Assembly: GCF_001294645.1 (NCBI RefSeq)
Contig: NZ_CP011868.1
Coordinates: 2,480,001-2,544,000 of the forward strand
From: Pseudonocardia sp. HH130629-09
Lineage (GTDB): Bacteria > Actinomycetota > Actinomycetes > Mycobacteriales > Pseudonocardiaceae
Direction: 5' to 3'
DNA length: 64,000 nucleotides
In this document: positions 3,377 to 25,541 of the stretch, one piece after another
Numbering within the stretch: the first letter of the stretch is position 1
Layout of the letters: every line of letters starts with the position of its first letter
Notes under the pieces: model-generated
Told to the model about the DNA's origin: nothing
What the model saw: the letters and a program-made list of their open reading frames with translations, nothing else
The model's database searches: none
Translations under genes and position numbers: made by a program

Positions 3377-3796
3377 CTACAGGGTGGCGCGCAGGTGCTC
3401 GGCGATGTCGGAGATCTGGCCCAGCACCCCGTTGACGTAGCGCGGGGAGTCGTCGGTCGACAGCGTCCGGGCCAGCTCGACGGCCTCGGTGATCGCGACC
3501 GGGTCGTCGACGTCGTCGACCCACAGCAGCTCGTAGATCCCGAGCCGCAGCAGGCCGCGGTCGACCGCGGGCATCCGGTCGACGTCCCAGCCCTCGGCGT
3601 GCTCGGCGATCAGCTGGTCGATCCGCTCCTGGTGGGTGGCGACACCCTCGACGAGCCGCGCCGCGTAGTCCTGGACGGGCGGCGCGTCGTCGGTCTCGCG
3701 GCGCGCGGTGAGCACGGACAGCGCGTCCTCACCGCGGGCCTCGGCCTCGAACAGGATGTCCAGTGCCCGCTTACGGGCCTTGGTGCGTGCGCGCAC
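3377..3796 (-). CDS. nusB: transcription antitermination factor NusB
   Basis: This 139-residue protein has the usual NusB length and all-helical pattern: RTKARKRALDILFEAEARG at the N-terminus, then DRMPAVDRGLLRLGIYELL and AITEAVELARTLSTDDSP with YVNGVLGQI near the C-terminus. NusB binds boxA RNA together with NusE (ribosomal protein S10), and supports antitermination of rRNA operons. The start lies one base beyond the stop of efp, so the pair is surely co-transcribed, matching the standard actinobacterial efp-nusB order. Confidence 0.95.
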   Translation of the reverse strand: MRARTKARKRALDILFEAEARGEDALSVLTARRETDDAPPVQDYAARLVEGVATHQERIDQLIAEHAEGWDVDRMPAVDRGLLRLGIYELLWVDDVDDPVAITEAVELARTLSTDDSPRYVNGVLGQISDIAEHLRATL

Positions 3797-3797
3797 C

Positions 3798-4358
<561 letters not shown>

Positions 4359-4463
4359 GTGCGCGCTCTCCTGCTCGGATCTCGGATTCGTGCGTCGGTC
4401 AGGGTACCGCCACCGGGTTCACCGGCCAGCCCGAGGGGCGGGCGACCTGCCAGGATGGGCGCC

Positions 4464-5129
4464 ATGACGGTGCGGGTGGTGGTGGCCGACGACCAGGCCG
4501 TGGTGCGGGCGGGGCTGCGGACGGTGCTGGCGGCGGCACCGGACATCGACGTCGTCGGGGAGGCAGGGGACGGCGCCGAGGCCGCCGAGCTGGCCGAGAC
4601 GCTGCGTCCGGAGGTCGTCCTGATGGACGTGCGGATGCCCGGCACCGACGGCATCGAGGGGACCCGGCGGATCCGCGCGTTGCGCGACCCCGGCATCCGC
4701 GTGCTGGTGGTGACGACCTTCGACCTGGACCGCCACGTGTACGACGCGCTGCGGGCCGGCGCGTCCGGCTTCGTGCTGAAGGACGTCGAGCCGGAGGACC
4801 TGCAGGTCGCGGTACGCACCGTGCACGCAGGGCACGAGCTGTTCGCGCCGTCGGTCACGCGGCGGCTCGTCGGCTCGTTCGTCCCGACCGACCCGCCCGC
4901 GCAGGCCGGGCCGGCCGCCGCGCTGACGGAGCGGGAGCGGGAGGTGCTCGGGCTGGTCGCCGCCGGGCTGTCCAACGCCGAGATCGCCGACCGGCTGGTG
5001 CTGGGCGGGACGACGGTCAAGACCCACGTGTCGAACCTGCTCACCAAGCTGGGGCTGCGCGACCGGGTCCAGCTGGTGGTGTTCGCCTACGAGCACGGGC
5101 TGGTGGGAGCGGCCGGTGCCAACGGCTGA
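4464..5129 (+). CDS. NarL/LuxR-family two-component response regulator
   Basis: This protein of about 221 residues has a receiver domain (VVVADDQAVVRAGLR, phospho-acceptor Asp near 54 in VVLMDVRMPG, Lys in VLKDVEP) and a C-terminal LuxR helix-turn-helix (ALTEREREVLGLVAAGLSNA, TTVKTHVSNLLTKLGL). The ATG at 4464 gives the standard receiver start; an in-frame ATG at 4455 is also possible. The reading frame overlaps the following histidine kinase by 14 bases, so the two are translationally coupled and form a pair. The adjacent ABC exporter is the likely target operon. Confidence 0.9.
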   Translation: MTVRVVVADDQAVVRAGLRTVLAAAPDIDVVGEAGDGAEAAELAETLRPEVVLMDVRMPGTDGIEGTRRIRALRDPGIRVLVVTTFDLDRHVYDALRAGASGFVLKDVEPEDLQVAVRTVHAGHELFAPSVTRRLVGSFVPTDPPAQAGPAAALTEREREVLGLVAAGLSNAEIADRLVLGGTTVKTHVSNLLTKLGLRDRVQLVVFAYEHGLVGAAGANG

Positions 5130-7227
5130 GCCCGGCGCGGACGCTCCCCCTGCACCGCTGCCCGGCAGCCGCGCCGGGGACATCGCGCTCGCGGTCCTGG
5201 CGCTGCTCCTCGCCGCCCAGGAGATGGTGACGACCCTGGTCGTCAACACCTACGGCTACGTCCACCGGCTGCCGTTGCCGCTGGAGGTGGCACTGGCGGT
5301 GGGTTTGAGCCTGGCGGCGGCCGCGGCGATGCTGCTGCGCCGCCGGCGGCCGCGGTGTGCCTACCTGGTCCTGGCCGTGATCTCCGCCCCGGGGATCGCG
5401 TTCCTCGGCGGGGCCGCGGCGCTGGTGTGGCCGCTGCTCGCGTTCTCCGTCGCACGGGCGCCGCAGCGCGGCCCGGTCGGTGCTGCGGCGTGGGTGGCCC
5501 TGCCCTGGCTCGGTTCGCTCGGACTGGCCGGGCTCCTGCGCCTGCCGGTCTCGGCGGACGTGGCGACCGACACCGGGCTGATCGTCGGCGGCGCGACGGT
5601 CGTGATGCCGATGCTGGTGATCGCCACCGTGGCGGGGCGCTGGAGCCGGTCCGCGGCGCTGCGCGCCGAGCGCGAACGGGCCGAGACCGACCGGCTGCAG
5701 CACGGCACCGCGCTGGACGCCGAGCGGTCCCGGATCGCCGAGGAGATCGGCGGTGGCGTGCTCAGCGGTCTGCGCAGCCTGGTCGCCCAGGCCGGGGCAC
5801 TGGGCCCCGACGCGACCGAGGCCGACCTGCGGGCCGCGCGGGAACGGGCCCGGTCCGTGCTGGCCGCGATGCGCCGGGTCCTGGGCGTGCTCCGCGCCCC
5901 CGCCGCCACCGCCGCCGCCGAGCCGGGACACCTCGTCGTCCCGGTGCCGGCCCCGGTCCCGGCAGCGTCCGCGCAGCGTCGCCGGATGCCGCTGCCCGAC
6001 CGGGCCGGGCTGTGGGCGCTCGTCGCGTTCGTCGTCCCGGCTCTGCTGGTCGGTGCGCTCGTCTCCTCGGCGGGCGACGTGGACACCGGGCTGGTGGTCG
6101 TCGACGGGCTCCTGCGCCTGCTGCAGCTGCCGTGGGGGAACCCGGCCGCGGCGCTGGTCGTGGCGGTGCAGTTCGCACTCGTCACGTGGTGGCGGACCGC
6201 GCCGGTGCCGGCGCTGCTGCTCGCCGGAGTGGCGTCGTTCGTCGCGACCATGCTCGACGGATCCAACACGTTCGCCGAGGCCACCTGGATACTTCTGGTG
6301 TGGGGCGCGGCGTCGACGGCGCCGGTCGTGACGTCCGCGGTGGCGGTGTCGGTGTCGACGCTGATCGTCCTCACCGGGGGCGTCCTGACGGGGGTGTGGC
6401 ACCGGCTCGGGACCCCGGCGTCGGTGGTCGTGCTCAGCTTCCTGGCCGTGGTGCCGCTGTGGGCGGCCGGGGTCGCGGTCCGCCACCACCGGCTCGACAC
6501 CGCGACCCGGCGACGCGCGCTCACCGAGGCCGGGGTGCGCGACGCACTCACCTGCGAACGCCTGCGGGTGGCCCGCGACCTGCACGACGTCGTCGCCCAC
6601 CACGTCTCTGCGGTGGCGGTACAGGCCGGGGCGGCGCGGCTCGCCGCCGACCCGGCGGCCCGCGCCGAGGCGCTCGGGCACATCGCGGACTCGGCCCGCC
6701 GGGTCGCCGAGGCGCTGCCCGCCCTCGCCGACCTGGGGCCGGACCCGGACGGCGCGGACCTGTCCCCCGCCGCGCTGGAGGCCCTGGTCGCACCGTCACG
6801 CGCAGCAGGGCTGCCGGTCACGGTGACGGTCGAGGGCTCCCCGACGCCGACGCCCGGCGAGGCCGAGCTGTTCGCGCGGCGCATCGTCACCGAGGCACTG
6901 ACCAACACCCTGCGCCACGCCGGGCCCACCCCCACCCGGGTGCGGGTCGTCCACGGCGGCGCCGCCGAACCCCTCGTCGTGGAGGTCGACGACGACGGCC
7001 CGGTGACCGGCCACCGGCCCGACGACACCGGCTCCCGCCTGGGCCTGCTCGGGATGCGGGAACGGGTCGCGCTGCTCGGCGGCGAGCTGTACACCGGCCC
7101 CGGCGACGGTCGGGGCTGGACGGTCCGCGCGGTGCTGCCCCGCAGCCCGCTCGTCCGCGAGGACGACCCCGCCGCGGCACCGATCTCGTCCTTCGCGCCG
7201 ATCCGCGAGGGCACCCCCGGCTCCTAG
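5116..7227 (+). CDS. membrane histidine kinase (HisKA_3 type) with a second, degenerate kinase-like module
   Basis: This 703-residue protein looks built from two sensor-kinase halves. The first has several membrane helices (about 15-170) and then a dimerisation-like helix, RSRIAEEIGGGVLSGLRSL near residue 210, where the phospho-accepting His is replaced and no ATPase domain follows. A second membrane block (about 290-460) leads to an intact HisKA_3 segment, VARDLHDVVAHHVSAVAVQA, with His near 489, and a HATPase domain (TEALTNTLRHA; VEVDDDGP; SRLGLLGMRERVALLGGEL). It pairs with the overlapping response regulator and presumably reports envelope stress or a drug to the downstream exporter. The ligand is unknown. 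Confidence 0.88.
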   Translation: MPTAEPGADAPPAPLPGSRAGDIALAVLALLLAAQEMVTTLVVNTYGYVHRLPLPLEVALAVGLSLAAAAAMLLRRRRPRCAYLVLAVISAPGIAFLGGAAALVWPLLAFSVARAPQRGPVGAAAWVALPWLGSLGLAGLLRLPVSADVATDTGLIVGGATVVMPMLVIATVAGRWSRSAALRAERERAETDRLQHGTALDAERSRIAEEIGGGVLSGLRSLVAQAGALGPDATEADLRAARERARSVLAAMRRVLGVLRAPAATAAAEPGHLVVPVPAPVPAASAQRRRMPLPDRAGLWALVAFVVPALLVGALVSSAGDVDTGLVVVDGLLRLLQLPWGNPAAALVVAVQFALVTWWRTAPVPALLLAGVASFVATMLDGSNTFAEATWILLVWGAASTAPVVTSAVAVSVSTLIVLTGGVLTGVWHRLGTPASVVVLSFLAVVPLWAAGVAVRHHRLDTATRRRALTEAGVRDALTCERLRVARDLHDVVAHHVSAVAVQAGAARLAADPAARAEALGHIADSARRVAEALPALADLGPDPDGADLSPAALEALVAPSRAAGLPVTVTVEGSPTPTPGEAELFARRIVTEALTNTLRHAGPTPTRVRVVHGGAAEPLVVEVDDDGPVTGHRPDDTGSRLGLLGMRERVALLGGELYTGPGDGRGWTVRAVLPRSPLVREDDPAAAPISSFAPIREGTPGS

Positions 7228-7256
7228 CGTCGGTGCCCACAGCGGGGGAGGGACCG

Positions 7257-8195
7257 ATGACCACACAGCAGCAACAGCTCCGGGCCGGGCCGGTGGCGGA
7301 CACCGGCGCCACACTCGAGATCGACGCGTTGACCAAGCGCTACGGCGGCACCGTCGCCCTGGACGGAGTGAGCTTCGACGTCCGCCCGGGCGAGATCTTC
7401 GGCTTCGTCGGCTCCAACGGCGCCGGGAAGACGACGACGATGCGGATCGCCCTGGGCGTGCTGGCGGCGGACTCCGGACAGGTCCGTCTCGGTGGGCGCC
7501 CGGTCGACCTCGACGTCCGCCGCACGATCGGCTACATGCCCGAGGAGCGCGGGCTGTACCCGAAGATGAAGGTCGGTGAGCAGCTCGCCTACCTGGCCGA
7601 GCTGCACGGCGTCGACCGGGTCGCTGCGCGCCGGGCGGTGCTGCGCTGGGCCGAGCAGCTCGGCGTCGACCACCGGCTCGACGACACCGTCGACGCGCTC
7701 AGCCTGGGCAACCAGCAGCGCGTCCAGCTCGCCGCGGCACTCGTGCACGACCCGGCCGTGCTGGTGCTCGACGAACCGTTCTCCGGGCTGGACCCGGTGG
7801 CCGTCGACGTGATGAGCGAGGTGCTGCGACAGAAGGCCCGCGCCGGGGTGCCGGTGCTGTTCTCCAGCCACCAGCTCGACCTGGTGCAGCGGCTCTGCGA
7901 CCGGGTCGGGATCCTCGTGGCCGGCCGGATGCGGACCGTCGGCACCGTCGGCGAGGTCCGGCGCGGTGGCGGCACCCGGCTGGAGGTGCGCGCCCCCGCC
8001 GCCCGCCCCGGCTGGGCACACGGGCTGGCCGGGGTCACCGTGCTCGCCGAGGAGCGCGGCCGCACCGTGCTGGCGCTCGGCGACGGCGTCGACGACCAGC
8101 GGGTCCTCGCCGCCGCGCTCGCCACCGGACCGGTGCACGGCTTCACGGTCACCACCCCGTCGCTGACCGATCTGTACCGGGAGGTCGTCGCATGA
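7257..8195 (+). CDS. ABC-2 type exporter, ATP-binding protein (NatA-like)
   Basis: This 312-residue ATPase has Walker A GSNGAGKTTT, a Q-loop region reading IGYMPEERGLYPKM, the signature LSLGNQQRVQLAAAL (an LSxGN variant common in the NatA/YhaQ branch), Walker B VLVLDEPFSGLD and the switch His in FSSHQ. A C-terminal domain of about 80 residues follows, as in drug and sodium exporters. The ATG has GGGGGAGGGACCG upstream. Its stop overlaps the permease start by four bases (ATGA), so subunit synthesis is coupled. Together with 8192-9397 it forms a membrane exporter under the two-component system just upstream. The substrate cannot be inferred. Confidence 0.92.
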   Translation: MTTQQQQLRAGPVADTGATLEIDALTKRYGGTVALDGVSFDVRPGEIFGFVGSNGAGKTTTMRIALGVLAADSGQVRLGGRPVDLDVRRTIGYMPEERGLYPKMKVGEQLAYLAELHGVDRVAARRAVLRWAEQLGVDHRLDDTVDALSLGNQQRVQLAAALVHDPAVLVLDEPFSGLDPVAVDVMSEVLRQKARAGVPVLFSSHQLDLVQRLCDRVGILVAGRMRTVGTVGEVRRGGGTRLEVRAPAARPGWAHGLAGVTVLAEERGRTVLALGDGVDDQRVLAAALATGPVHGFTVTTPSLTDLYREVVA

Positions 8196-9397
8196 GCGCC
8201 CCGTCCACCACCCTGCCCGCGCGGCGCGCGGTCGCGCTGGTCGCCCGTCGCGAGTTCCGCGTGCAGGTGCACAAACGCAGCTTCTGGGTCAGCAACGCGA
8301 TCATGCTCCTGCTCATCGCGGGCAGCATGATCGCCTTCTCGCTGTTCGGCACGGGCGACGACCGGCCCTCGGTCGGCGTCGCCGGTGACCCGGCACTGGC
8401 CGCCGCCGTCACCTCCGCCGCGGAGCGGCTCGGGTCACCCGTCGACGTCCGGGAGATCGCCTCCGCCGGCGACGGCCGGGCCGCCGTCGCCTCGGGGGAC
8501 CTCGACGTCGCCCTGCTCGGCGACCACTCGGGGCCGGGCGCGACGGCCGTCGTCGACTCCGAGCTCGCCCCGGCGACCCGGGCCGTCCTCGACGCAGCAC
8601 TGGCCGACCGGGCCACCGGCGTCGGGCTCGCCGTGGTGGGCGTGACCCCGTCCCAGCTGGCGGCCGCGACCCCGCCCGCCGGGCTGACCGTGGACGCACT
8701 CGACCCCGCCGAGCCGGAGGCCGGGCAGCGGTCGGCGCTGTCCTTCGCGGTGCTGATCGTGATGTTCCTGCAGATCGTCGGTTTCGGGCTGACCGTCGCG
8801 ATGGGCGTGGTCGAGGAGAAGTCCAGCCGGGTGGTGGAGCTGCTGCTGTCCACGATCCGCCCGCTGGACCTGCTCTGGGGCAAGGTGGTGGGAATCGGCG
8901 CGGCCGGGCTGGTCCAGCTGCTGCTCTACGGCGTCGTCGGGATCGCGACCGGGCTCGCCACCGGGCTGCTGACGATCACCGGCACCGCGGTCGGGGTGTT
9001 CGGCGCGGCGCTGGCCTGGTTCGTGCTCGGCTACGCCTTCTTCGCCGTCCTCTACGCCGCAGCCGGGTCGCTGGTGTCGCGCCAGGAGGACGTCAACTCG
9101 ACGACCGGGCCGCTGATGATGCTGCTGTTCGCGATGTACGGCGCCTCGTTCTGGTACCTCGGCTCGCCGGACGCGATGGCGCTGCAGGTCCTGTCGTGGA
9201 TCCCGCCGTTCCCGGCGATGCTCATGCCGCTGATGGTCGCCCAGGGCACCGTCTCGGCCTGGCACGTGGCCGGCTCGGCGCTGGTCATGATCGTCGCCGT
9301 GGCGCTGCTGGCCCGCGCCGGGGCCCGCGTGTACGAACGGTCCGTGCTGCGGATCGGTGCCACGGTGCCGTGGCGGGAGGCGCTCAGATCTCGATGA
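8192..9397 (+). CDS. ABC-2 type exporter, permease (NatB/YhaP-like)
   Basis: This 401-residue membrane protein starts with VALVARREFRVQVHKRSFW before a first helix (AIMLLLIAGSMIAFSLF). A large extracytoplasmic domain of about 130 residues and five or six further helices follow. VVEEKSSRVVELLLSTIRPLDLLWGK is cut here to its core EEKSSRVVELLLSTIRP, the coupling segment typical of ABC-2 permeases of the NatB type. The four-base overlap with the ATPase gene shows the two are partners. The last 14 bases overlap the 3' end of the convergent peptidase gene at 9384. Confidence 0.9.
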   Translation: MSAPSTTLPARRAVALVARREFRVQVHKRSFWVSNAIMLLLIAGSMIAFSLFGTGDDRPSVGVAGDPALAAAVTSAAERLGSPVDVREIASAGDGRAAVASGDLDVALLGDHSGPGATAVVDSELAPATRAVLDAALADRATGVGLAVVGVTPSQLAAATPPAGLTVDALDPAEPEAGQRSALSFAVLIVMFLQIVGFGLTVAMGVVEEKSSRVVELLLSTIRPLDLLWGKVVGIGAAGLVQLLLYGVVGIATGLATGLLTITGTAVGVFGAALAWFVLGYAFFAVLYAAAGSLVSRQEDVNSTTGPLMMLLFAMYGASFWYLGSPDAMALQVLSWIPPFPAMLMPLMVAQGTVSAWHVAGSALVMIVAVALLARAGARVYERSVLRIGATVPWREALRSR

Positions 9398-19157: not shown

Positions 19158-19564
19158 ATGACCACGATCGTGAGGTTGATCCGTTCTGCCCGCTTGTCCG
19201 ACGTGGCGGAGTACGCCTATGCCGCGACCGCGCCCGCGGATGCACGACTGATCTTCCTGGCGGGCAGCTGCCCCCTCCACGCCGACGGCTCGACCGCGCG
19301 GTCGGGGACGTCGCAGGCCAAGCAGCGCACGGCGTCGAGAACATGAGAACCGCGTTGGCCGAGAGCGGCGCGTCGCTGAGTGACGTCATCAGCACCCGGG
19401 TGCTCGTCGCGTCCAGCGAGCAGGCCGATCTCGTGGACGCTTGGGAGGTGGTCCGTAACGCCTTCGGTGACCACGACCCGCCCAGCACCCTCATGGGGGT
19501 GACCGTGCTCGGTTATGACGATCAGCTCGTCGAGATCGAGGCGGTCGCCGCGGTCCGCGACTAG
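19158..19564 (+). pseudogene. RidA-family (YjgF/YER057c) protein, frameshifted
   Basis: The first frame from the ATG at 19158 gives LSDVAEYAYAATAPADARLI and FLAGSCPLHADGST. At about 19295-19302 one base appears to be lost, and the family continues in another frame as VGDVAGQAAHGVENMRTALA, VISTRVLVASSEQADLVDAW and VTVLGYDDQLVEIEAVAAV, ending at 19564. RidA proteins hydrolyse reactive enamine/imine intermediates of PLP enzymes. Everything except the single indel looks normal, so it is either freshly dead or a read error. Confidence 0.78.
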
Positions 19565-19624
19565 TTCCTCCTCCGACGTCGACGTCCGGGGGTCGGTGGT
19601 CGACTGTTCGCGGTCGTTGATCGC

Positions 19625-19639
19625 CCAGTAGTGTACTGG
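19625..19639. promoter_or_regulatory. palindromic operator candidate upstream of the MFS exporter
   Basis: CCAGTA-GTG-TACTGG is a perfect inverted repeat with a 3-base centre, 39 bases upstream of the MFS start codon at 19678. Its spacing suits repressor binding over the promoter. No regulator of this gene is adjacent except the TetR gene 0.6 kb upstream. Confidence 0.45.
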
Positions 19640-19677
19640 CTCGAACCCTGAGTGTCCGACGCGTTGCTGTTCGTGAC

Positions 19678-20925
19678 ATGGTCAGCGGGCCGACTATGAA
19701 CGATGCCGACTCCGCAGCCGCCGTGCCGAGGCCCCGGCGCCTGACCGAGGTCTTCACGCTTCGCGAGTTCCGTGCGCTCTGGTCTGCCGAGGTCGTCTCG
19801 ATCCTGGGCGACCAGCTCGCTCGGGTGGCGTTCTCGGTGCTGGTCTACGAGCGCACCAGCTCAGCGGCGCTGTCGGCGGCGGTGTACGCGTTGACATTCC
19901 TCCCTGCGCTGCTGGGCGGCGCACTGTTGGGCTGGGTCGCCGACCGGTATCCGCGTCGGCGGGTCATGATCGGCAGTCACCTCACCAGAGCGGCGCTCGT
20001 CATGCCGATGGCGTGGCCCGGCCTCCCGCTGCCCGTGCTGTGCGCCCTGATCGTGGTCCTGGTGCTGGCGGGTTCACCGCACTCCGCCGCGCAGGGGGCG
20101 TTGTTGCCGGAGATCCTGCGCGGTGACCTGCTCGAACGCGGCTATGCCGTCCGTCAGGTGACGGGCCAGCTAGCGCAGGTTGCCGGGTTCGCGACCGGCG
20201 GAGCGCTGCTGGCCCTGCTGAGTCCGCACGCCGCGCTGGTCATGAACGCGGTGACCTTCGTGCTGTCCGCGGCGGTGTTGGCCTGCGGGGTCGCGCCTCG
20301 TCCCGCGCCTGCCCCTGCCGCCGGTGCGGTCCGTTCCTGGTCGGGCGACATCGCTGCCGGAGCGCGCACGGTCTTCGCGGACCCCTCGCGTCGCACGCTG
20401 GCCGTCGTGGTCTGGCTGGCCGGGACCTACATCGCCCCGGAGGGAGTCGCCGTTCCCTATGCCGCGCAGCTCGGCGCCGGGCCGGTCGCCGTCGGGCTGC
20501 TCCTGGCCGCCATCCCGGCCGGCAGTGTCGTGGGGGCGATCGTGTTCACGCGCTGGGTCCCCCAGCGGACCCGGGAACGGTGGATGCTCCCGCTCGCCGT
20601 GGCTGCCGGCGTTCCGTTGATGGTGAGCGCGCTCGCGCCGTCCGTCGCGGCGATCACCGTGTTGTGGGCACTCAGCGGCGCGGCCGTGGCCGCCGCGCTG
20701 ATCCAGGCGCAGGCCGGTTTCGTACGCCGGACCCCGGCCGAGGCGCGGGGGCGCGCGACCGGCCTCGCGGCCGCCGGGCTGATCGGCGCGCAGGGGCTCG
20801 GTCTCCTCACTGCCGGTCTGCTCGCCGAGTGGTCCTCCCCCGGCGTGGCGGTGGCGGTGACCGCCGCGGTGGCCGCGGCGGGGCTCGCAGCCGTGGCCAC
20901 GTCACGGCCCGCGCGAGGACTCTGA
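19678..20925 (+). CDS. MFS transporter (MFS_3-type drug or siderophore exporter)
   Basis: This 415-residue protein has about 12 hydrophobic segments. It opens with LREFRALWSAEVVSILGDQL, the typical start of the MFS_3 (enterobactin/macrolide exporter) group, and has the loop-2 motif GWVADRYPRRRVM. An alternative ATG at 19696 would remove six residues. A palindrome lies just upstream, suggesting induced expression, and a hairpin just downstream. It is convergent with the MRNWNW micro-ORF array, which begins 158 bases beyond its stop; a functional link as an exporter is possible but not shown. Confidence 0.87.
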   Translation: MVSGPTMNDADSAAAVPRPRRLTEVFTLREFRALWSAEVVSILGDQLARVAFSVLVYERTSSAALSAAVYALTFLPALLGGALLGWVADRYPRRRVMIGSHLTRAALVMPMAWPGLPLPVLCALIVVLVLAGSPHSAAQGALLPEILRGDLLERGYAVRQVTGQLAQVAGFATGGALLALLSPHAALVMNAVTFVLSAAVLACGVAPRPAPAPAAGAVRSWSGDIAAGARTVFADPSRRTLAVVVWLAGTYIAPEGVAVPYAAQLGAGPVAVGLLLAAIPAGSVVGAIVFTRWVPQRTRERWMLPLAVAAGVPLMVSALAPSVAAITVLWALSGAAVAAALIQAQAGFVRRTPAEARGRATGLAAAGLIGAQGLGLLTAGLLAEWSSPGVAVAVTAAVAAAGLAAVATSRPARGL

Positions 20926-20940
20926 GGGGCGGGTCGCCCC
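20926..20940. terminator. short GC hairpin after the MFS gene
   Basis: GGGGCG-GGT-CGCCCC forms a perfect 6-bp stem with a 3-base loop immediately after the TGA of the MFS gene. There is no T-run. It could end transcription of the MFS gene and, from the other strand, of the convergent micro-ORF array. Confidence 0.4.
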
Positions 20941-21082
20941 GGACGCCTCACGACTCCCCGCCACCTCATCGACGTCGCGCGTCGCGCCTTCCCCGGCCGG
21001 ACGTCGCCGGCGCGTGCTTCAGATCCGTACACGGCTACATGTCACGAGTTGCCTCTTCCAGATCTCGGACAGCACTACCACG

Positions 21083-21103
21083 TCACCAGTTCCAGTTGCG
21101 CAC
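21083..21103 (-). CDS. micro-ORF 6 of the array, peptide MRNWNW
   Basis: GTG CGC AAC TGG AAC TGG TGA with GGAGAGGGGAG 6 bases upstream. An ATG two codons earlier would give MAVRNWNW but would abut the Shine-Dalgarno. About 30 bases further on, GGCAACTCGTGA may be a decayed seventh copy. Confidence 0.6.
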   Translation of the reverse strand: MRNWNW

Positions 21104-21144
21104 AGCCATCTCCCCTCTCCGCTCGTGCCCGTCGATCACAGCGC

Positions 21145-21165
21145 TCACCAGTTCCAGTTGCGCAT
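21145..21165 (-). CDS. micro-ORF 5 of the array, peptide MRNWNW
   Basis: ATG CGC AAC TGG AAC TGG TGA with GGAAAGGGGA 7 bases upstream. A longer frame (71 codons from 21360) ends in the same residues but reads through copies 3 and 4 in another phase and has no coding character. Confidence 0.62.
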   Translation of the reverse strand: MRNWNW

Positions 21166-21242
21166 CCCGCATTCCCCTTTCCGACGATCCCCGCCGGCGC
21201 CGACAGCCGGATGGCTCGACACCCGCCCCGACTCGGTCACCG

Positions 21243-21263
21243 TCACCAGTTCCAGTTGCGCAT
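21243..21263 (-). CDS. micro-ORF 4 of the array, peptide MRNWNW
   Basis: ATG CGC AAC TGG AAC TGG TGA with GGGGAGG 8 bases upstream, a near-ideal Shine-Dalgarno distance. An in-frame GTG inside the Shine-Dalgarno itself is unlikely to be used. Confidence 0.62.
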   Translation of the reverse strand: MRNWNW

Positions 21264-21311
21264 CGCCCACACCTCCCCGCCTACTTCTCGACACGTCGTT
21301 GCATCCACGCC

Positions 21312-21332
21312 TCACCAGTTCCAGTTGCGCAC
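21312..21332 (-). CDS. micro-ORF 3 of the array, peptide MRNWNW
   Basis: GTG CGC AAC TGG AAC TGG TGA. This copy has the weakest ribosome binding site (GGCGAG close to the start). An in-frame ATG 13 codons upstream would give a 19-residue peptide ending in VRNWNW, so the start is less certain here than in other copies. Confidence 0.5.
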   Translation of the reverse strand: MRNWNW

Positions 21333-21401
21333 GCTCGCCGGGCCTGTCTCGCCTCGCCACCCACCCCTCATCTCAGACACCGTTCCGCTCGATCACTGCA
21401 G

Positions 21402-21422
21402 TCACCAGTTCCAGTTGCGCAT
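21402..21422 (-). CDS. micro-ORF 2 of the array, peptide MRNWNW
   Basis: ATG CGC AAC TGG AAC TGG TGA with GGAAAGGGGG ending 5 bases upstream. This copy is decisive: the frame above it back to the in-frame TGA of micro-ORF 1, 24 codons away, contains no ATG, GTG, TTG or CTG. If translated at all, it makes only the hexapeptide. Confidence 0.65.
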   Translation of the reverse strand: MRNWNW

Positions 21423-21473
21423 TACGCCCCCTTTCCGATGGAGTGGAGAATCTTTACACCGAACCGCGCTCCG

Positions 21474-21494
21474 TCACCAGTTCCAGTTACGCAC
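21474..21494 (-). CDS. micro-ORF 1 of the array (promoter-proximal), peptide MRNWNW
   Basis: GTG CGT AAC TGG AAC TGG TGA. GGAGAGGGGGAG lies 3 bases upstream of the GTG. The Arg codon is CGT rather than CGC, the only change inside any copy, and it is silent. The reading frame upstream stays open into IS256-family DNA, so a longer product exists on paper, but its 5' end would come from the insertion. Confidence 0.6.
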   Translation of the reverse strand: MRNWNW

Positions 21495-21789
21495 GACTCC
21501 CCCTCTCCGGGCAGCCCCTTCTATCGGGTTACTGCGAACGGCCCAGTCGCCGACCGTCCGCCGACGGCGAGCCGCCGAGGCACCGAGCTCTGCCTCGGGG
21601 CCTGTCTCGTGATCGGTGTTTCGGCGTCGTTGCTCAGTAGGTCTCGGCTCCCGGCCAGCGGTCACCGAACGTGATGGCGAACGCGTTGATCACGGGCTTC
21701 CAACGCATCGTCCACCTCGTGCGGCCCGTCCCGGTCGGGTCCAGGCTGCGAGTCACAAGATACAAGCATTTCATCGCAGCCTGCTCAGT

Positions 21790-22776
21790 GAGCCTTTCCC
21801 AGTAGGTGCTGGTTGATCATGTGGTTCGGTCGTGCTCGACGTGGAGCAGGACGAGCGCGGCGGCGGTGATCGCGCCGATCCGCCAGGGGCAGAAGCTGAC
21901 CCGGCGTAGCGCCTTGAAGGTGGTCTTGAGCAGGGAGTTCCCGCGTTCGGCCAGGGCTCGGGTGGCGGAGTGCAGCGTGTTGACGGTGCGTTTGTCCACC
22001 GACAGTCCGCCGCCGGTGGGGGTCTTGAACGGGCAGGTCAGGCGGGTGTTCTCACCCTCGTAGCCGAGGTCGGCGAGCACGACGTGGGTGTCGTCGGTCC
22101 AGCCCTCGATCGCGTCGAGCAGGCCGGGGTGACCGCGGGCGCAGGTGGTGTCGTGCTCGCGGCCCGGGCGCACCGGGGAGGTCCACAACGGCCACCCGTC
22201 AGGCGCGGTGAGGACCTGAACGTTCCCGCCGTGGACGTGGTGCTTACCCGACCACCACAGATCCACTCCCGGGGTCGGTCCGGGAGTGCGGGAGCGGTCA
22301 GTGTGGATCACGGTGCCGTCGAGGTGAACGTGGGTGTGCCCGGCGGTGCGGGCCGCGAGCAGCGCGCCGGGCAGTCCAGGCGCGGCGGCGGCCAGAACGT
22401 CGATACCTTCGTGCAGGTAGCGGTAGGTACTCGACAGGCTCAGCCGGTTGTCGGCGGCGAGCTGGGCGACCCGGGTCGCGTCGAGGAACCAGCGCAGCAC
22501 CAGCACCGCGTGGCGGTCACAGTCCAGCGCCCGACGCCCGCGCCGGGTCCCGCGCCGGAGGCGTTCCTCGGCCAACAGCCGCGACAGCAACGACGCGGTG
22601 GGCTCCCCGATCGGGAGCACGGCGGTGTAGGTGACAGGATCGGGCACGCGGGACCTCGGTGGTGAGTCGATCTTTGAGCGGACCGACCTCTTCTACCGGG
22701 GTCCCGCACCCTCGTTGAGCACCTCCACGCCCCCGGCGTGTCGCCGCCAGCCGCTCCCCACTACTGGGAAAGGCTC
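21790..22776 (-). mobile_element. nested IS5-like insertion sequence, 987 bp
   Basis: Terminal inverted repeats GAGCCTTTCCCAGTAG (16 bases, perfect) lie at 21790 and, reversed, at 22776. They are flanked by a 3-base duplication AGT (21787-21789 and 22777-22779). The element holds one transposase gene on the minus strand. Size, short direct repeat and single DDE_4-type gene suit the broad IS5 group, though the subgroup is not assigned. It inserted in the transposase gene of the older IS256-family element, giving a clear order of events. Confidence 0.9.
21817..22647 (-). CDS. IS5-like transposase (DDE superfamily 4)
   Basis: This 276-residue protein has an N-terminal helix-turn-helix (AADNRLSLSSTYRYLHEGID) and a DDE core: Asp in HVHLDGTVIHTDR, then GGNVQVLTAPDGWPLWTSPV, Asp in VVLADLGYEGE, and Glu in RALAERGNSLLKTTF. 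The C-terminus reads WRIGAITAAALVLLHVEHDR. It is intact, so this small element may still be active. It is the only gene of the 21790-22776 insertion. Confidence 0.9.
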   Translation of the reverse strand: MPDPVTYTAVLPIGEPTASLLSRLLAEERLRRGTRRGRRALDCDRHAVLVLRWFLDATRVAQLAADNRLSLSSTYRYLHEGIDVLAAAAPGLPGALLAARTAGHTHVHLDGTVIHTDRSRTPGPTPGVDLWWSGKHHVHGGNVQVLTAPDGWPLWTSPVRPGREHDTTCARGHPGLLDAIEGWTDDTHVVLADLGYEGENTRLTCPFKTPTGGGLSVDKRTVNTLHSATRALAERGNSLLKTTFKALRRVSFCPWRIGAITAAALVLLHVEHDRTT

Positions 22777-24013
22777 AGTGGGGAAATGACCACGCGCCCG
22801 CACCGCGCGCCGGTAGCGGGCGTTAAGCGATTCGATCGCATTCGTAGAGCAGATCACCCTTCGAATCTCGACGTCGTAGTCCAAGAACGGCACGAACTCT
22901 TCCCACGCGTTGCGCCATAGCCGGATCATCGCCGCGTACTTACGGCCCCATTTCTCGTCGAGCTCATCCATAGCGATAAGTGCTGCATTCGGGTTGGGCG
23001 CGGCATAGATTGGTTTGATGTCGCGCTTCACCGCGTCCCAGTCCTGTCGACCCACCAGCCGGAAAGTGTTTCGGATCAGGTGCACGACGCAGGTTTGGAC
23101 AATGGTTTGCGGCCACACGTTGGCCACGACCTCCGGGAGTCCTTTGAGGCCGTCGCAGACCAGGAACAGCACGTCACGCACGCCGCGGTTCTTCAGGTCG
23201 ACCAGCACGCTCATCCAGAACTTCGCGCCCTCACTGCCGACGCCCATCCACAGCCCCAGCACGTCCTTGCAGCCGTCCACGGTGACGCCGATGGCTGCGT
23301 AGACCGGCCGGTTGGCGACCTGCCCGTCCCGGACCTTGACGTGGACAGCGTCGATGAACACCGCGGCGTACACCGAATCCAACGGCCGACCAACCCAGTC
23401 ATTCATCTCGGCGACGACCTTGTCGGTGATCCGCGAGACCGTCTCCTTCGATACTGACGCCCCATAGATGTCAGCGAAATGTGCGGAAACCTCCCCGGTC
23501 GTCATCCCTTTCGCATACAGCGACAGTACGACCTCGTCGACATCTGTGAGGCGCCGCTGACGCTTCTTCACGATCTGCGGCTCGAAAGTGCTGGCCCTGT
23601 CTCTCGGAACGTCGATCTCCACGTCACCCGCGGCATCCGAGAGAACCGTCTTCGAGCGGGACCCGTTCCGCACGTTGGTGGATTCCCGGCCGGGGTCGGC
23701 CCGGTTCTTGTCGTGCCCGAGGTGCTCGGTCATCTCCTCGTTCAGCGCCGTTTCCAGAACATTCTTGGTAAAGAGCTTCAACAGGCCGTCCGGGCCGGTC
23801 AACGCCAGCCCGCGCGCCTTCGCCTCGGCCACCATCGCCGCCGCAGCGGCCCGCTCCGCCGACGCCTGCCGAGCAGGCTTCGGGTCACCCTCGCTTGGAT
23901 CCACAAGGTCCGATGTCATCACTGTCCGTGCCCATCTCGCCGGACCTCAGCCCGGCGTGTCGGGCCGAAAACACCGATCTTGAAACAGTCCCCTGCCTCG
24001 CGGCGACCTCGAC

Positions 24014-24042
24014 AGGGTAGGCGAGAAGCATCACCACGTCAG
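24014..24042 (-). promoter_or_regulatory. sigma-70-type promoter candidate facing the micro-ORF array
   Basis: On the minus strand CTGACG (24042-24037) and TACCCT (24019-24014) are separated by exactly 17 bases, a good match to TTGACR-N17-TANNNT. Predicted start of transcription is about 24007. The IS256 target site begins at 24000, so before insertion the transcript would have reached micro-ORF 1 after a leader of about 100 bases. Now 2.4 kb of IS DNA lies between. Confidence 0.5.
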
Positions 24043-24185
24043 CGCCTTAGTTGATCTTGGCGGGTCATTCGAGCCCGGGTGGCGCCCAGCAGATCGGTGA
24101 GAGCGACACGACTGAGCAGGGATGAAACCGCTGGACGACGTCTATGCTGACACGAGAGATAACGATCTACGATTCGGGGATTTCG

Positions 24186-25541
24186 GTGACCTCATCCACC
24201 GCGCGAGACACCGACCGGAGTGCGCTCCGGTCGTGGCTGGCGGCGTGGCAGCTGTGGTCACTTCCGATCGGCGTCCGAGCGCTACTCCTCGCGGTAGAGC
24301 TCGCCGCTGTGTGCCTACTCACCGTCGATATCCTCCTCGGCGGCGTCCCGCGCGATCTGTCGGCATGGCTGATCGCAGGCACGCTGGTGATCTTGAGCGG
24401 GTTCCACGCCGAGATCTCACTGCGTGCCGAACGACTACGGCGGCGCATCGCCGAGACCAGATACGTCGACCTGAGTTCGGTGTGGACGTTCGCGGGCGCG
24501 TTGTTGCTACCGCCGATGCTGGCAGCGGCCACGGTGATCGCCAGTTACACACATCTGTACTTCCGCGTGTTCCGACCCGCAGGAACTCCAACGCATCGAC
24601 AGCTCTATTCGACGTCGACGGTCGTCCTGGCCGTCTACCTGGTTTCCGCGGTCACACTGATCTTTCCCGGATCCGGCGGATTCGACTCCTGGTGGGCGAT
24701 CGTCGAGATCGCTGCGTGTCTGGTGGTCTACACCGGGACGAACATGTTGCTGGTCGTGAGCGTCATCCGGCTCGCGCAGCCGGGCAGCACATTCCTCGCG
24801 ATCCTCGCCGGAGGGGAGATCGCGCTGGAGACCGCCACACTGAGCCTCGGCGGAATCGTGGCGACTGTCATCGTCCCCGACCACGTCCTGCTCGTCTGGC
24901 TGCTGATCCCGGCGCTCGTGTTGATGGAGCAGACGACCCTCATCAGGCAGCTGGAGACACGGGCAGCGACGGACGCGAAGACCGGTCTGCTGAACTCCGA
25001 GGGCTGGCGTTCCCGCGCGCTGCAGCTGCTCGGCGCGGCGAAGCGCGACTGCACCTGCGCCGGCGTGCTCATCCTCGACCTGGACTTCTTCAAGGAGGTC
25101 AACGACCGCTACGGGCACCTGGTCGGTGACGCGGTGCTCCGCGCGGTCGGCGAGGCGATCGTCGCCGAGATCCGCGACGACGACGCCGCGGGTCGCTTCG
25201 GCGGGGAGGAGTTCGTCATCGCGCTGGCCGGGATGTTCACCTCGGCCAGCCGCAACGCAGAAGCGGTCCTGGAGGTGGGGGAGCGGATCCGACGCAGGAT
25301 CGAGCGCCTGGCGGTCCACGTCGACGACGAGGTCCCCCCGGTCGCGGTCACCGACCTCACCGCCTCGATCGGGGCCGCGGTCTACCCGCAGGCCGGTCGC
25401 GAGCTCGACGTCCTGCTCGCGGCCGCCGATGAGGCCCTCTACGCCGCGAAGAACGCCGGCCGTAACCAGGTCCTGGTCAGCCACGGCCCGGCCGCTCCTC
25501 CGTCCGACCCGTCGGTGCCGTCGCCACGCCCGGGAACATGA
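24186..25541 (+). CDS. membrane-bound diguanylate cyclase (GGDEF)
   Basis: This protein of about 451 residues has a membrane-integral sensor with roughly eight helices (residues 20-260, for example VRALLLAVELAAVCLLTVDI and HVLLVWLLIPALVLMEQ) and then a GGDEF domain. The active site is GGEEF in RFGGEEFVIALAG, DLDFFKEVNDRYGH is present, and RDDD five residues before GGEEF is a product-inhibition (I) site. It makes cyclic di-GMP from GTP. I prefer the GTG at 24186 (GGGGATTTCG upstream) over an ATG at 24144, whose extra residues look non-coding. No EAL domain follows, so this is synthesis only. Confidence 0.87.
   Translation: MTSSTARDTDRSALRSWLAAWQLWSLPIGVRALLLAVELAAVCLLTVDILLGGVPRDLSAWLIAGTLVILSGFHAEISLRAERLRRRIAETRYVDLSSVWTFAGALLLPPMLAAATVIASYTHLYFRVFRPAGTPTHRQLYSTSTVVLAVYLVSAVTLIFPGSGGFDSWWAIVEIAACLVVYTGTNMLLVVSVIRLAQPGSTFLAILAGGEIALETATLSLGGIVATVIVPDHVLLVWLLIPALVLMEQTTLIRQLETRAATDAKTGLLNSEGWRSRALQLLGAAKRDCTCAGVLILDLDFFKEVNDRYGHLVGDAVLRAVGEAIVAEIRDDDAAGRFGGEEFVIALAGMFTSASRNAEAVLEVGERIRRRIERLAVHVDDEVPPVAVTDLTASIGAAVYPQAGRELDVLLAAADEALYAAKNAGRNQVLVSHGPAAPPSDPSVPSPRPGT

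Follow-up and report, generated by a model that had tools for sequence, protein, structure and literature searches.

Tandem arrays of minimal peptide genes, constrained at the level of the encoded peptide, lie beside the gene for a membrane diguanylate cyclase in Pseudonocardia and other actinomycetes, and at many of these loci an MFS transporter gene lies close by as well. Taken together, arrays, cyclase and transporter look like an undescribed peptide signalling system. The array described here is found in a 64,000-nucleotide stretch of DNA from Pseudonocardia sp. HH130629-09 (C1:2480001-2544000), the whole of which is referred to as the window. We consider it slightly better than an even bet that the locus in the window combines an exporter (the MFS protein), an array of genes for a leaderless peptide and a peptide-sensing membrane diguanylate cyclase in a peptide-to-c-di-GMP circuit. 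This reading builds on computed features, namely selection at the peptide level, linkage to two partners, an orientation divergent from the cyclase, co-variation of the peptide with sensor and transporter, and intact cyclase motifs.

Positions 21083-21494 of the window hold, on the minus strand, six micro-ORFs for the hexapeptide MRNWNW (Table 1). The repeat TCACCAGTTCCAGTTGCGCA occurs at 21083, 21145, 21243, 21312, 21402 and 21474, five times exactly and once with a single change, and its minus-strand copies read [A/G]TG-CG[C/T]-AAC-TGG-AAC-TGG-TGA; 100 dinucleotide shuffles of the window produced zero copies of it. An SD-like purine tract precedes five of the six copies, the exception being the one that starts at 21332. 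For the copy that begins at 21422, no other possible start precedes it back to an in-frame stop 18 codons upstream, while possible in-frame starts are present upstream of the other five. The preliminary description of this DNA had claimed that six repeats encode MRNWNW on the minus strand, that purine tracts precede five of them and that the second copy (21402) lacks an alternative start; all three statements hold, the last for this copy uniquely. An Rfam search of 19500-24500 returned just two matches, both sub-threshold and implausible, and a promoter and terminator consensus scan of 20800-21850 gave no match. The array and the cyclase gene are 2.6 kb apart because two adjoining transposase genes (21817-23922) lie between them. 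The segment 23991-24332 resembles the sequence just upstream of, and extending into, the cyclase gene of one relative (L057).

Table 1. Features of the array locus, in window coordinates
Feature	Position	Strand	Remarks
MFS transporter, 415 aa, proposed peptide exporter	19678..20925	+	Convergent with array; Pfam MFS_1 4.6e-25, MFS_3 1.1e-15
Micro-ORF copy 6 (array order)	21083..21103	-	GTG start, MRNWNW, SD-like gagaggggag
Micro-ORF copy 5	21145..21165	-	ATG start, MRNWNW, SD-like gaaagggg
Micro-ORF copy 4	21243..21263	-	ATG start, MRNWNW, SD-like ggggagg
Micro-ORF copy 3	21312..21332	-	GTG start, MRNWNW, single copy without SD-like tract
Micro-ORF copy 2	21402..21422	-	ATG start, MRNWNW, SD-like ggaaaggggg, without alternative upstream start
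Micro-ORF copy 1 (nearest cyclase)	21474..21494	-	GTG start, CGT Arg codon, MRNWNW, SD-like ggagaggggg
IS transposase DDE_Tnp_4, outside system	21817..22647	-	Pfam PF13359 2.1e-25
Second IS transposase Transposase_mut, outside system	22693..23922	-	Pfam PF00872 1.5e-122
Membrane diguanylate cyclase, 465 aa, proposed receptor	24144..25541	+	Helical N-terminal sensor domain ~24234-24971; GGDEF residues 274-442

The same genome carries related arrays. The exact motif RTG-CGN-AAY-TGG-NNN-TGG-TRR is found nine times in its 6.3 Mb, as six MRNWNW copies in the window, one MRNWDW (L010) and two MRNWEW (L011), and all nine fall in three loci, at every one of which a member of a single cyclase family is present. 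A one-mismatch match at C1:3648434, the final codon of which is TGG, was excluded from this count; the reversed-pattern control gave one match at one mismatch for this pattern and zero at two mismatches for a stricter one. Across the genus the motif is present in 14 of 60 genomes including this one, with one false member (G009, whose last codon is TGG, which TRR permits), and the reversed pattern has zero matches across the 60. At family level it occurs in 6 of 297 genomes, all of the same genus. Other genomes have N, D, E, G, H or T at residue 5 of their arrays, uniformly within each array bar one R copy. The codons for this residue differ (AAC/AAT, GGT/GGC/GGG, ACC/ACT), as do the Arg codons (CGC/CGT/CGG). 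A search on sequence alone found 61 RNWxW copies that have a stop, in 21 loci, and an SD-like tract accompanies 60 of them, compared with 16% of random positions (2038/12600). With any NTG allowed, they start with ATG 35 times, GTG 25 times, TTG once and CTG never.

Two loci illustrate how these hexapeptides vary. At L041 (8796-8956 and just upstream), MRNWTW hexapeptides are mixed with two heptapeptide reads that are one codon longer, RNWVWN and RNWIWN. At L011, an MRNWEW array (6601-6694) and its cyclase gene (7036-8433) occupy the dxs locus, where orthologues have MRNWGW. The L011 cyclase groups in the MRNWGW clade of the sensor tree, and residue 5 seems to have changed at this locus; MRNWEW is also found in the separate clade of L052.

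All 21 of these array loci (3 in this genome and 18 in other genomes) adjoin a divergent gene of one cyclase family, which is interrupted at L045. That locus (3735-8581) has a seven-copy array, a transposase-like gene that splits the cyclase directly behind its sensor, and another insertion-like ORF in the gap from array to cyclase, both insertions having been named by eye; its array contains the only off-type copy, VRNWRW, a single case. Members of the family carry GGDEF behind an N-terminal domain that is some 245 residues long. The GG[DE]EF motif is intact in 191 of 192 homologues with complete frames, and in 76/76 of those with arrays, the window included. The AlphaFold model of the window cyclase is of high confidence, with a pLDDT of 90, and its GGDEF part superposes on solved diguanylate cyclases; among the best 50 structure matches, most cover residues 244-450. 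The sensor domain of the window member matches 0 Pfam families. Among 40 members examined, MASE9 is matched by three (best 1.5e-4) and a cation-efflux model by one, with no further Pfam family at E 0.01, and no sequence relative of the sensor is found among solved structures at E 1. The family resembles MASE-type sensors in placing a multi-helix membrane domain N-terminal to GGDEF, but differs in that just 3 of 40 members have MASE9 matches and the window member has none.

Homologues of the sensor domain extend well beyond the MRNWxW group. With the sensor-domain query A2, and with the present genome counted at every level, they were found in 59 of 60 genomes of the genus (E 1e-10), in 52 of 70 genomes and 34 of 46 genera of the family (1e-6) and in 22 of 148 genomes of the class (1e-12), while a broader alignment, A3, found them in 3 of 296 phylum genomes at 1e-10, own genome included. 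The regions around them were scanned de novo with a detector that is blind to the peptide, calling SD-led ORFs of 5-8 codons in which the last four residues recur, and run on the 197 of 212 unique cyclase homologues with at least 800 nt upstream. Repeated micro-ORFs (two or more) were detected on the divergent strand at 76 of 197, on the sense strand at 0 of 197 and downstream on either strand at 0 of 171. The homologues were found with a profile made from array-linked proteins, and 76/197 is thus a biased frequency. The other 121 have one micro-ORF or zero, and the window locus itself was scored as array-less because of its IS genes. In 1406 window-strands of the fetched loci, repeats occur in 62, all 62 of which share cores of the divergent arrays.

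The 76 arrays comprise 344 copies within 1450 nt at a median spacing of 67, with a median of 266 nt from the first copy to the start of the sensor domain, and the longest counted has 22 copies (L138). Their peptides are 5-8 residues long and include MRNKSW, MRNHNW, MRNKNW, MRNRAW, MRNRSW, MRNRTWI, MRSWDW and MANRDN/MTNRDN, as well as MRSRDN, MREKIW, MRDNTWT, MRDTTWS and MRANSWD. Repeated arrays are present in Actinophytocola too. In one genome of the genus (G016), 21 copies, 18 of MRNKSW and 3 of MSNKSW, lie between an MFS gene at about 3,050,765-3,051,949 and a sensor domain at about 3,054,057. The tail of the peptide is its conserved part, as seen for MRNKSW/MSNKSW at L138 and for VASWDW, VRSWDW and MSRSWDW at L104, and therefore the signal may consist of the final four or five residues, perhaps once the peptide has been trimmed. 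Single micro-ORFs are seen in other settings. Ten Amycolatopsis loci (L218, L235-L237, L239, L241, L246, L250, L253 and L261) have a lone MNGRED between the MFS and cyclase genes. Eight loci (L043, L044, L047, L049, L051, L053, L055 and L130) contain a second, convergent cyclase with its own MRNRGW/MDNRGW micro-ORF, single in all except L047, where it is double; the MFS gene lies behind the second cyclase in six of the eight.

Codon usage within the 76 arrays indicates what is being conserved. Among 83 codon differences, 70 are synonymous and 13 non-synonymous, where 10.6 synonymous differences would be expected. Units differing from the commonest unit at no more than two bases entered this test, and its p of 2.7e-49 is too strong, as copies in an array are not independent. 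A looser set of units with up to four mismatches, judged to include chance matches and replaced by the stricter one for that reason, gives 60 synonymous against 46 other differences at an expected synonymous fraction of 0.124, and the excess remains. The copies start with ATG (200), GTG (140) or TTG (4) and stop with TGA (328), TAA (8) or TAG (8), and their spacing modulo 3 is spread as 124/84/60. At seven orthologous loci beside dxs, two micro-ORFs are kept and the spacers have diverged. The arrays are minimal peptide genes constrained at the peptide level. The proposal in the preliminary description that selection acts on the peptide is borne out by the synonymous excess, the exchange of valid starts and stops and the out-of-frame spacing, and a search among relatives for repeats kept with loss of frame, start or stop, or for spacers that are themselves kept, favours coding.

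The second partner is an MFS transporter, whose gene in the window stops 157 bases short of the array. In NCBIfam it scores 156 bits against TIGR00900 (cut-off 319.6) and 74.6 bits against EntS (cut-off 324), both under the cut-off. The 60 genus genomes hold 49 homologues at 1e-60, in 47 genomes, and at least 44 of the 49 lie within 5 kb of a sensor-GGDEF match when tested against the 89 matches among those listed; two of the five without a nearby cyclase are within 700 bases of a contig start. In the 44 MFS-cyclase pairs, the MFS gene is upstream on the same strand 34 times, divergent 8 times and downstream twice. Across 49 MFS-cyclase loci, two or more repeated divergent micro-ORFs lie between the genes at 40, a single NRGW ORF at 5 and none at 1, with the MFS gene on the other side at 3; removing seven duplicates leaves 42 unique loci, with 34 in the repeated class, 5 with the single NRGW ORF, 2 with MFS on the other side and 1 with none. 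Sense-strand repeats occur at 1 of 49.

Counted from the arrays, the MFS gene is upstream in the standard order at 45 of 76, on the far side of the cyclase at 10 and missing from the available flank at 21. Where at least 3.8 kb is available upstream, it is found at 18 of 30 arrays, five of these past a second cyclase. Among the 16 MRNWxW-type arrays in that analysis it is found only at L050 and the G and T types, and among homologues with the same length of flank but without a micro-ORF match it is found at 9 of 19 (one of the nine being the window, and six being the second cyclase in a cluster). One class-level family (f21) has the same order at 11 of 12 array-bearing loci, with MFS identities of 36-42%, and MFS and cyclase can lie in one open frame (L221). 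The preliminary description had held that no modifying enzyme is adjacent and that any partner is elsewhere or lost. The first part stands, none having been seen beside the array; the second does not, with the MFS gene so near and the cyclase just past two IS genes.

A survey of neighbours used 352 filtered genes from 51 loci with 3.5 kb or more on each side; 23 families recurred in at least two peptide cores, and 8 of these in at least three. The biggest recurring family is the cyclase, merged in places with MFS, which does not form a separate family there. Pfam searches of 11 of the other 14 largest families identified dxs, histidine phosphatase, HIT, alpha-amylase/CBM48, 3'-5' exonuclease, PNPOx, luciferase-like monooxygenase, thiolase, acyl-CoA dehydrogenase and lysine/ornithine monooxygenase, with one family matchless; no P450 or ThiF is among these eleven. 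The annotated recurrent neighbours are ordinary housekeeping genes, mostly shared synteny of the dxs locus. The preliminary description had proposed a search of other genomes for conserved neighbours; the P450 that it named among the candidates was not seen in these eleven families, and the evidence for the MFS transporter comes from the locus counts given above.

Peptide, sensor and transporter vary together. In a co-variation set of 115/116 loci, peptide distance correlates with sensor distance at 0.519 and with GGDEF distance at 0.377. Partial Mantel tests (n=115) give 0.385 for peptide and sensor given GGDEF (p 0.005), but 0.023 for peptide and GGDEF given sensor (p 0.33). At the 61 loci with MFS, peptide and MFS correlate at 0.368 given sensor (p 0.005), while peptide and sensor fall to 0.059 given MFS distance (p 0.15), which means that specificity of the transporter fits at least as well as specificity of the receptor. 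The peptide varies with the sensor and the transporter and not with the catalytic domain, and sensor and transporter are inseparable in this respect. At the level of single residues, co-variation with the peptide reaches a comparable level in the GGDEF domain. In a FastTree sensor tree most peptide types fall into clades, with a minimum of 52 changes over 115 rows, a count without a shuffled baseline; support is weak for 32 of the 112 inner branches of this tree.

Read as a signalling locus, every micro-ORF of the array would be a minimal gene in its own right, all of them encoding one leaderless peptide, within a unit of up to three parts. The ribosome would initiate at every ATG or GTG and release MRNWNW, with copy number setting the peptide dose. 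The MFS transporter would then export the peptide, and the N-terminal membrane domain of the cyclase would sense it and alter c-di-GMP synthesis by the GGDEF domain; that the peptide is translated in the cell, exported and sensed is what we infer, as is the direction in which c-di-GMP responds. Several arrays in one genome, each with its own peptide and cyclase, would act as private channels, and in the MRNWxW group residue 5, which is N, D or E in the arrays of this genome, would define the channel. By analogy, the whole would work like a peptide pheromone circuit. The suggestion in the preliminary description of a multicopy minimal peptide system serving as a signal is the best-supported direction, as these are minimal genes selected for the peptide. 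We propose more tentatively, and at somewhat less than an even chance, a general actinomycete system in which tandem minimal genes encode leaderless pheromones of 5-8 residues, with dedicated MFS export, peptide-gated cyclases, channels that differ by one residue and array length tuning the dose.

Several other explanations have to be weighed against this one. The peptide may be an intracellular ligand, acting on the cyclase either from the cytoplasm or inside the membrane to gate it, with the MFS protein clearing the peptide or having some other role. ORFs of just 5-8 codons without a leader or signal sequence would suit such a ligand, as would the 21 of 76 arrays that have no MFS gene on the available flank. 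However, the genus MFS homologues sit with the cyclase in at least 44 of 49 cases and MFS distance tracks the peptide, and we regard an intracellular ligand as rather unlikely. Export could also serve a different end, the peptide being an antimicrobial or other effector and the cyclase a regulator of its production or an accessory. Microcin C7 is made from the MccA heptapeptide with the MFS exporter MccC and the adenylating enzyme MccB. Short MR-peptides beside an MFS exporter recall this plan, and a copy number of up to 22 fits a bulk product. Against an effector, there is no modifying enzyme among the annotated recurring neighbours, and the sensor of the cyclase, which is the constant partner, tracks the peptide. 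The ThiF model has three matches in this genome, all more than 160 kb away from any array, and an MccB-like partner enzyme was rejected on this ground; an effector is unlikely overall.

Control of a downstream gene in cis, with the micro-ORFs serving as leader peptides or stalling the ribosome, is improbable. Many of the peptides end in Trp, and at the MFS-divergent loci of the genus (8 found) an MRNRAW-type array is codirectional with MFS in 5 of 5 fetched. These MRNRAW-type loci, though, are the only ones with MFS downstream and codirectional. In 34 of 44 MFS-cyclase pairs MFS and then cyclase follow on one strand, with the array on the opposite strand where scanned, and the gene downstream on the array strand is inconstant, being dxs at L011, the lysine/ornithine monooxygenase at L010 and the convergent MFS gene in the window. 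Some of the peptides, moreover, have no Trp.

The preliminary description had pointed to kinship with biarylitides, in which case the micro-ORFs would be RiPP precursors of the biarylitide or atropopeptide kind, cross-linked by a P450 encoded elsewhere. Five-residue biarylitide precursors do exist (PMC13417212), and the MRNWxW group has the W-x-W spacing. This kinship is not supported. The genome encodes many P450s, but in a PF00067 search of all of it the matches closest to each of its three arrays are some 42 kb off or further, and sister peptides of the system (MRNKSW, MRSRDN, MNGRED) lack aromatic residues at i and i+2; a P450 partner was rejected, and such a precursor is very improbable. 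That the repeats are non-coding binding sites for a protein or RNA elements, as strong nucleotide conservation of the unit within an array might suggest, is next to impossible given the synonymous excess, the start and stop swaps, the frame-free spacing and the different peptides that relatives encode at the same place.

The closest known systems share parts of the proposed signalling circuit. In the pheromone systems of Gram-positive bacteria (agr/AIP-AgrC, ComX-ComP and RRNPP), the precursors are longer and are processed. The arrays resemble these in that a short ribosomal peptide is encoded beside a sensor gene and that peptide and sensor change together, although here this change is inseparable from that of the transporter; they differ in having 5-8 codons, up to 22 repeats, a candidate MFS exporter and a diguanylate cyclase as output. 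With microcin C7 they share a directly translated, short MR-starting peptide and an MFS transporter, which lies beside the array in the window (19678-20925) and in the standard order at 45 of 76 arrays. Microcin C7, in contrast, has a single peptide gene and an adenylating MccB, whereas these arrays have a cyclase and no such enzyme near. Biarylitides, which combine a five-residue precursor with a P450, are likewise of the smallest class of functional peptide gene, but the arrays have many copies, other neighbours and no P450 nearby. Among quorum-sensing ligands in c-di-GMP networks, the accessible part of a 2022 review (PMC8846402) gives direct evidence for BDSF (RpfR) and AI-2 (dCACHE cyclase); this part names no peptide ligand as tested and places MASE1 among domains without discernible purpose. 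In these systems too a signal molecule acts on a c-di-GMP enzyme, but the ligands are a fatty acid and AI-2.

In the literature searched, which leaves most subscription journals outside its scope, MRNWNW, MRNWDW, MRNWEW, MRNWGW, MRNWHW and MRNWTW are absent, and no system of peptide signals with diguanylate cyclases was found. Genes of 5-8 codons fall below usual gene-calling limits, and a whole system of this kind can therefore be missed. On plasmid p1 of Pseudonocardia sp. DSM 110487, three MRNHNW ORFs lie upstream of a GGDEF gene in a stretch annotated without genes, in a gene table that describes itself as incomplete. If the signalling reading is true, peptides would join the signals sensed directly by c-di-GMP enzymes, a largely unassigned membrane sensor family would gain a ligand class, and actinomycetes would possess a set of signals and receptors coded by residue. 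Peptides this short can be synthesised and tested straight away.

Two observations concern the region between cyclase and array. A GTGATC motif is enriched in the divergent intergenic regions, yet occurs in only 20 of 76 arrays, mostly those of the orthologous MRNWxW group. The MRNWGW loci have a conserved GTGATCGAT element and a TAGGAT element, possibly of promoter type, between the cyclase and the array.
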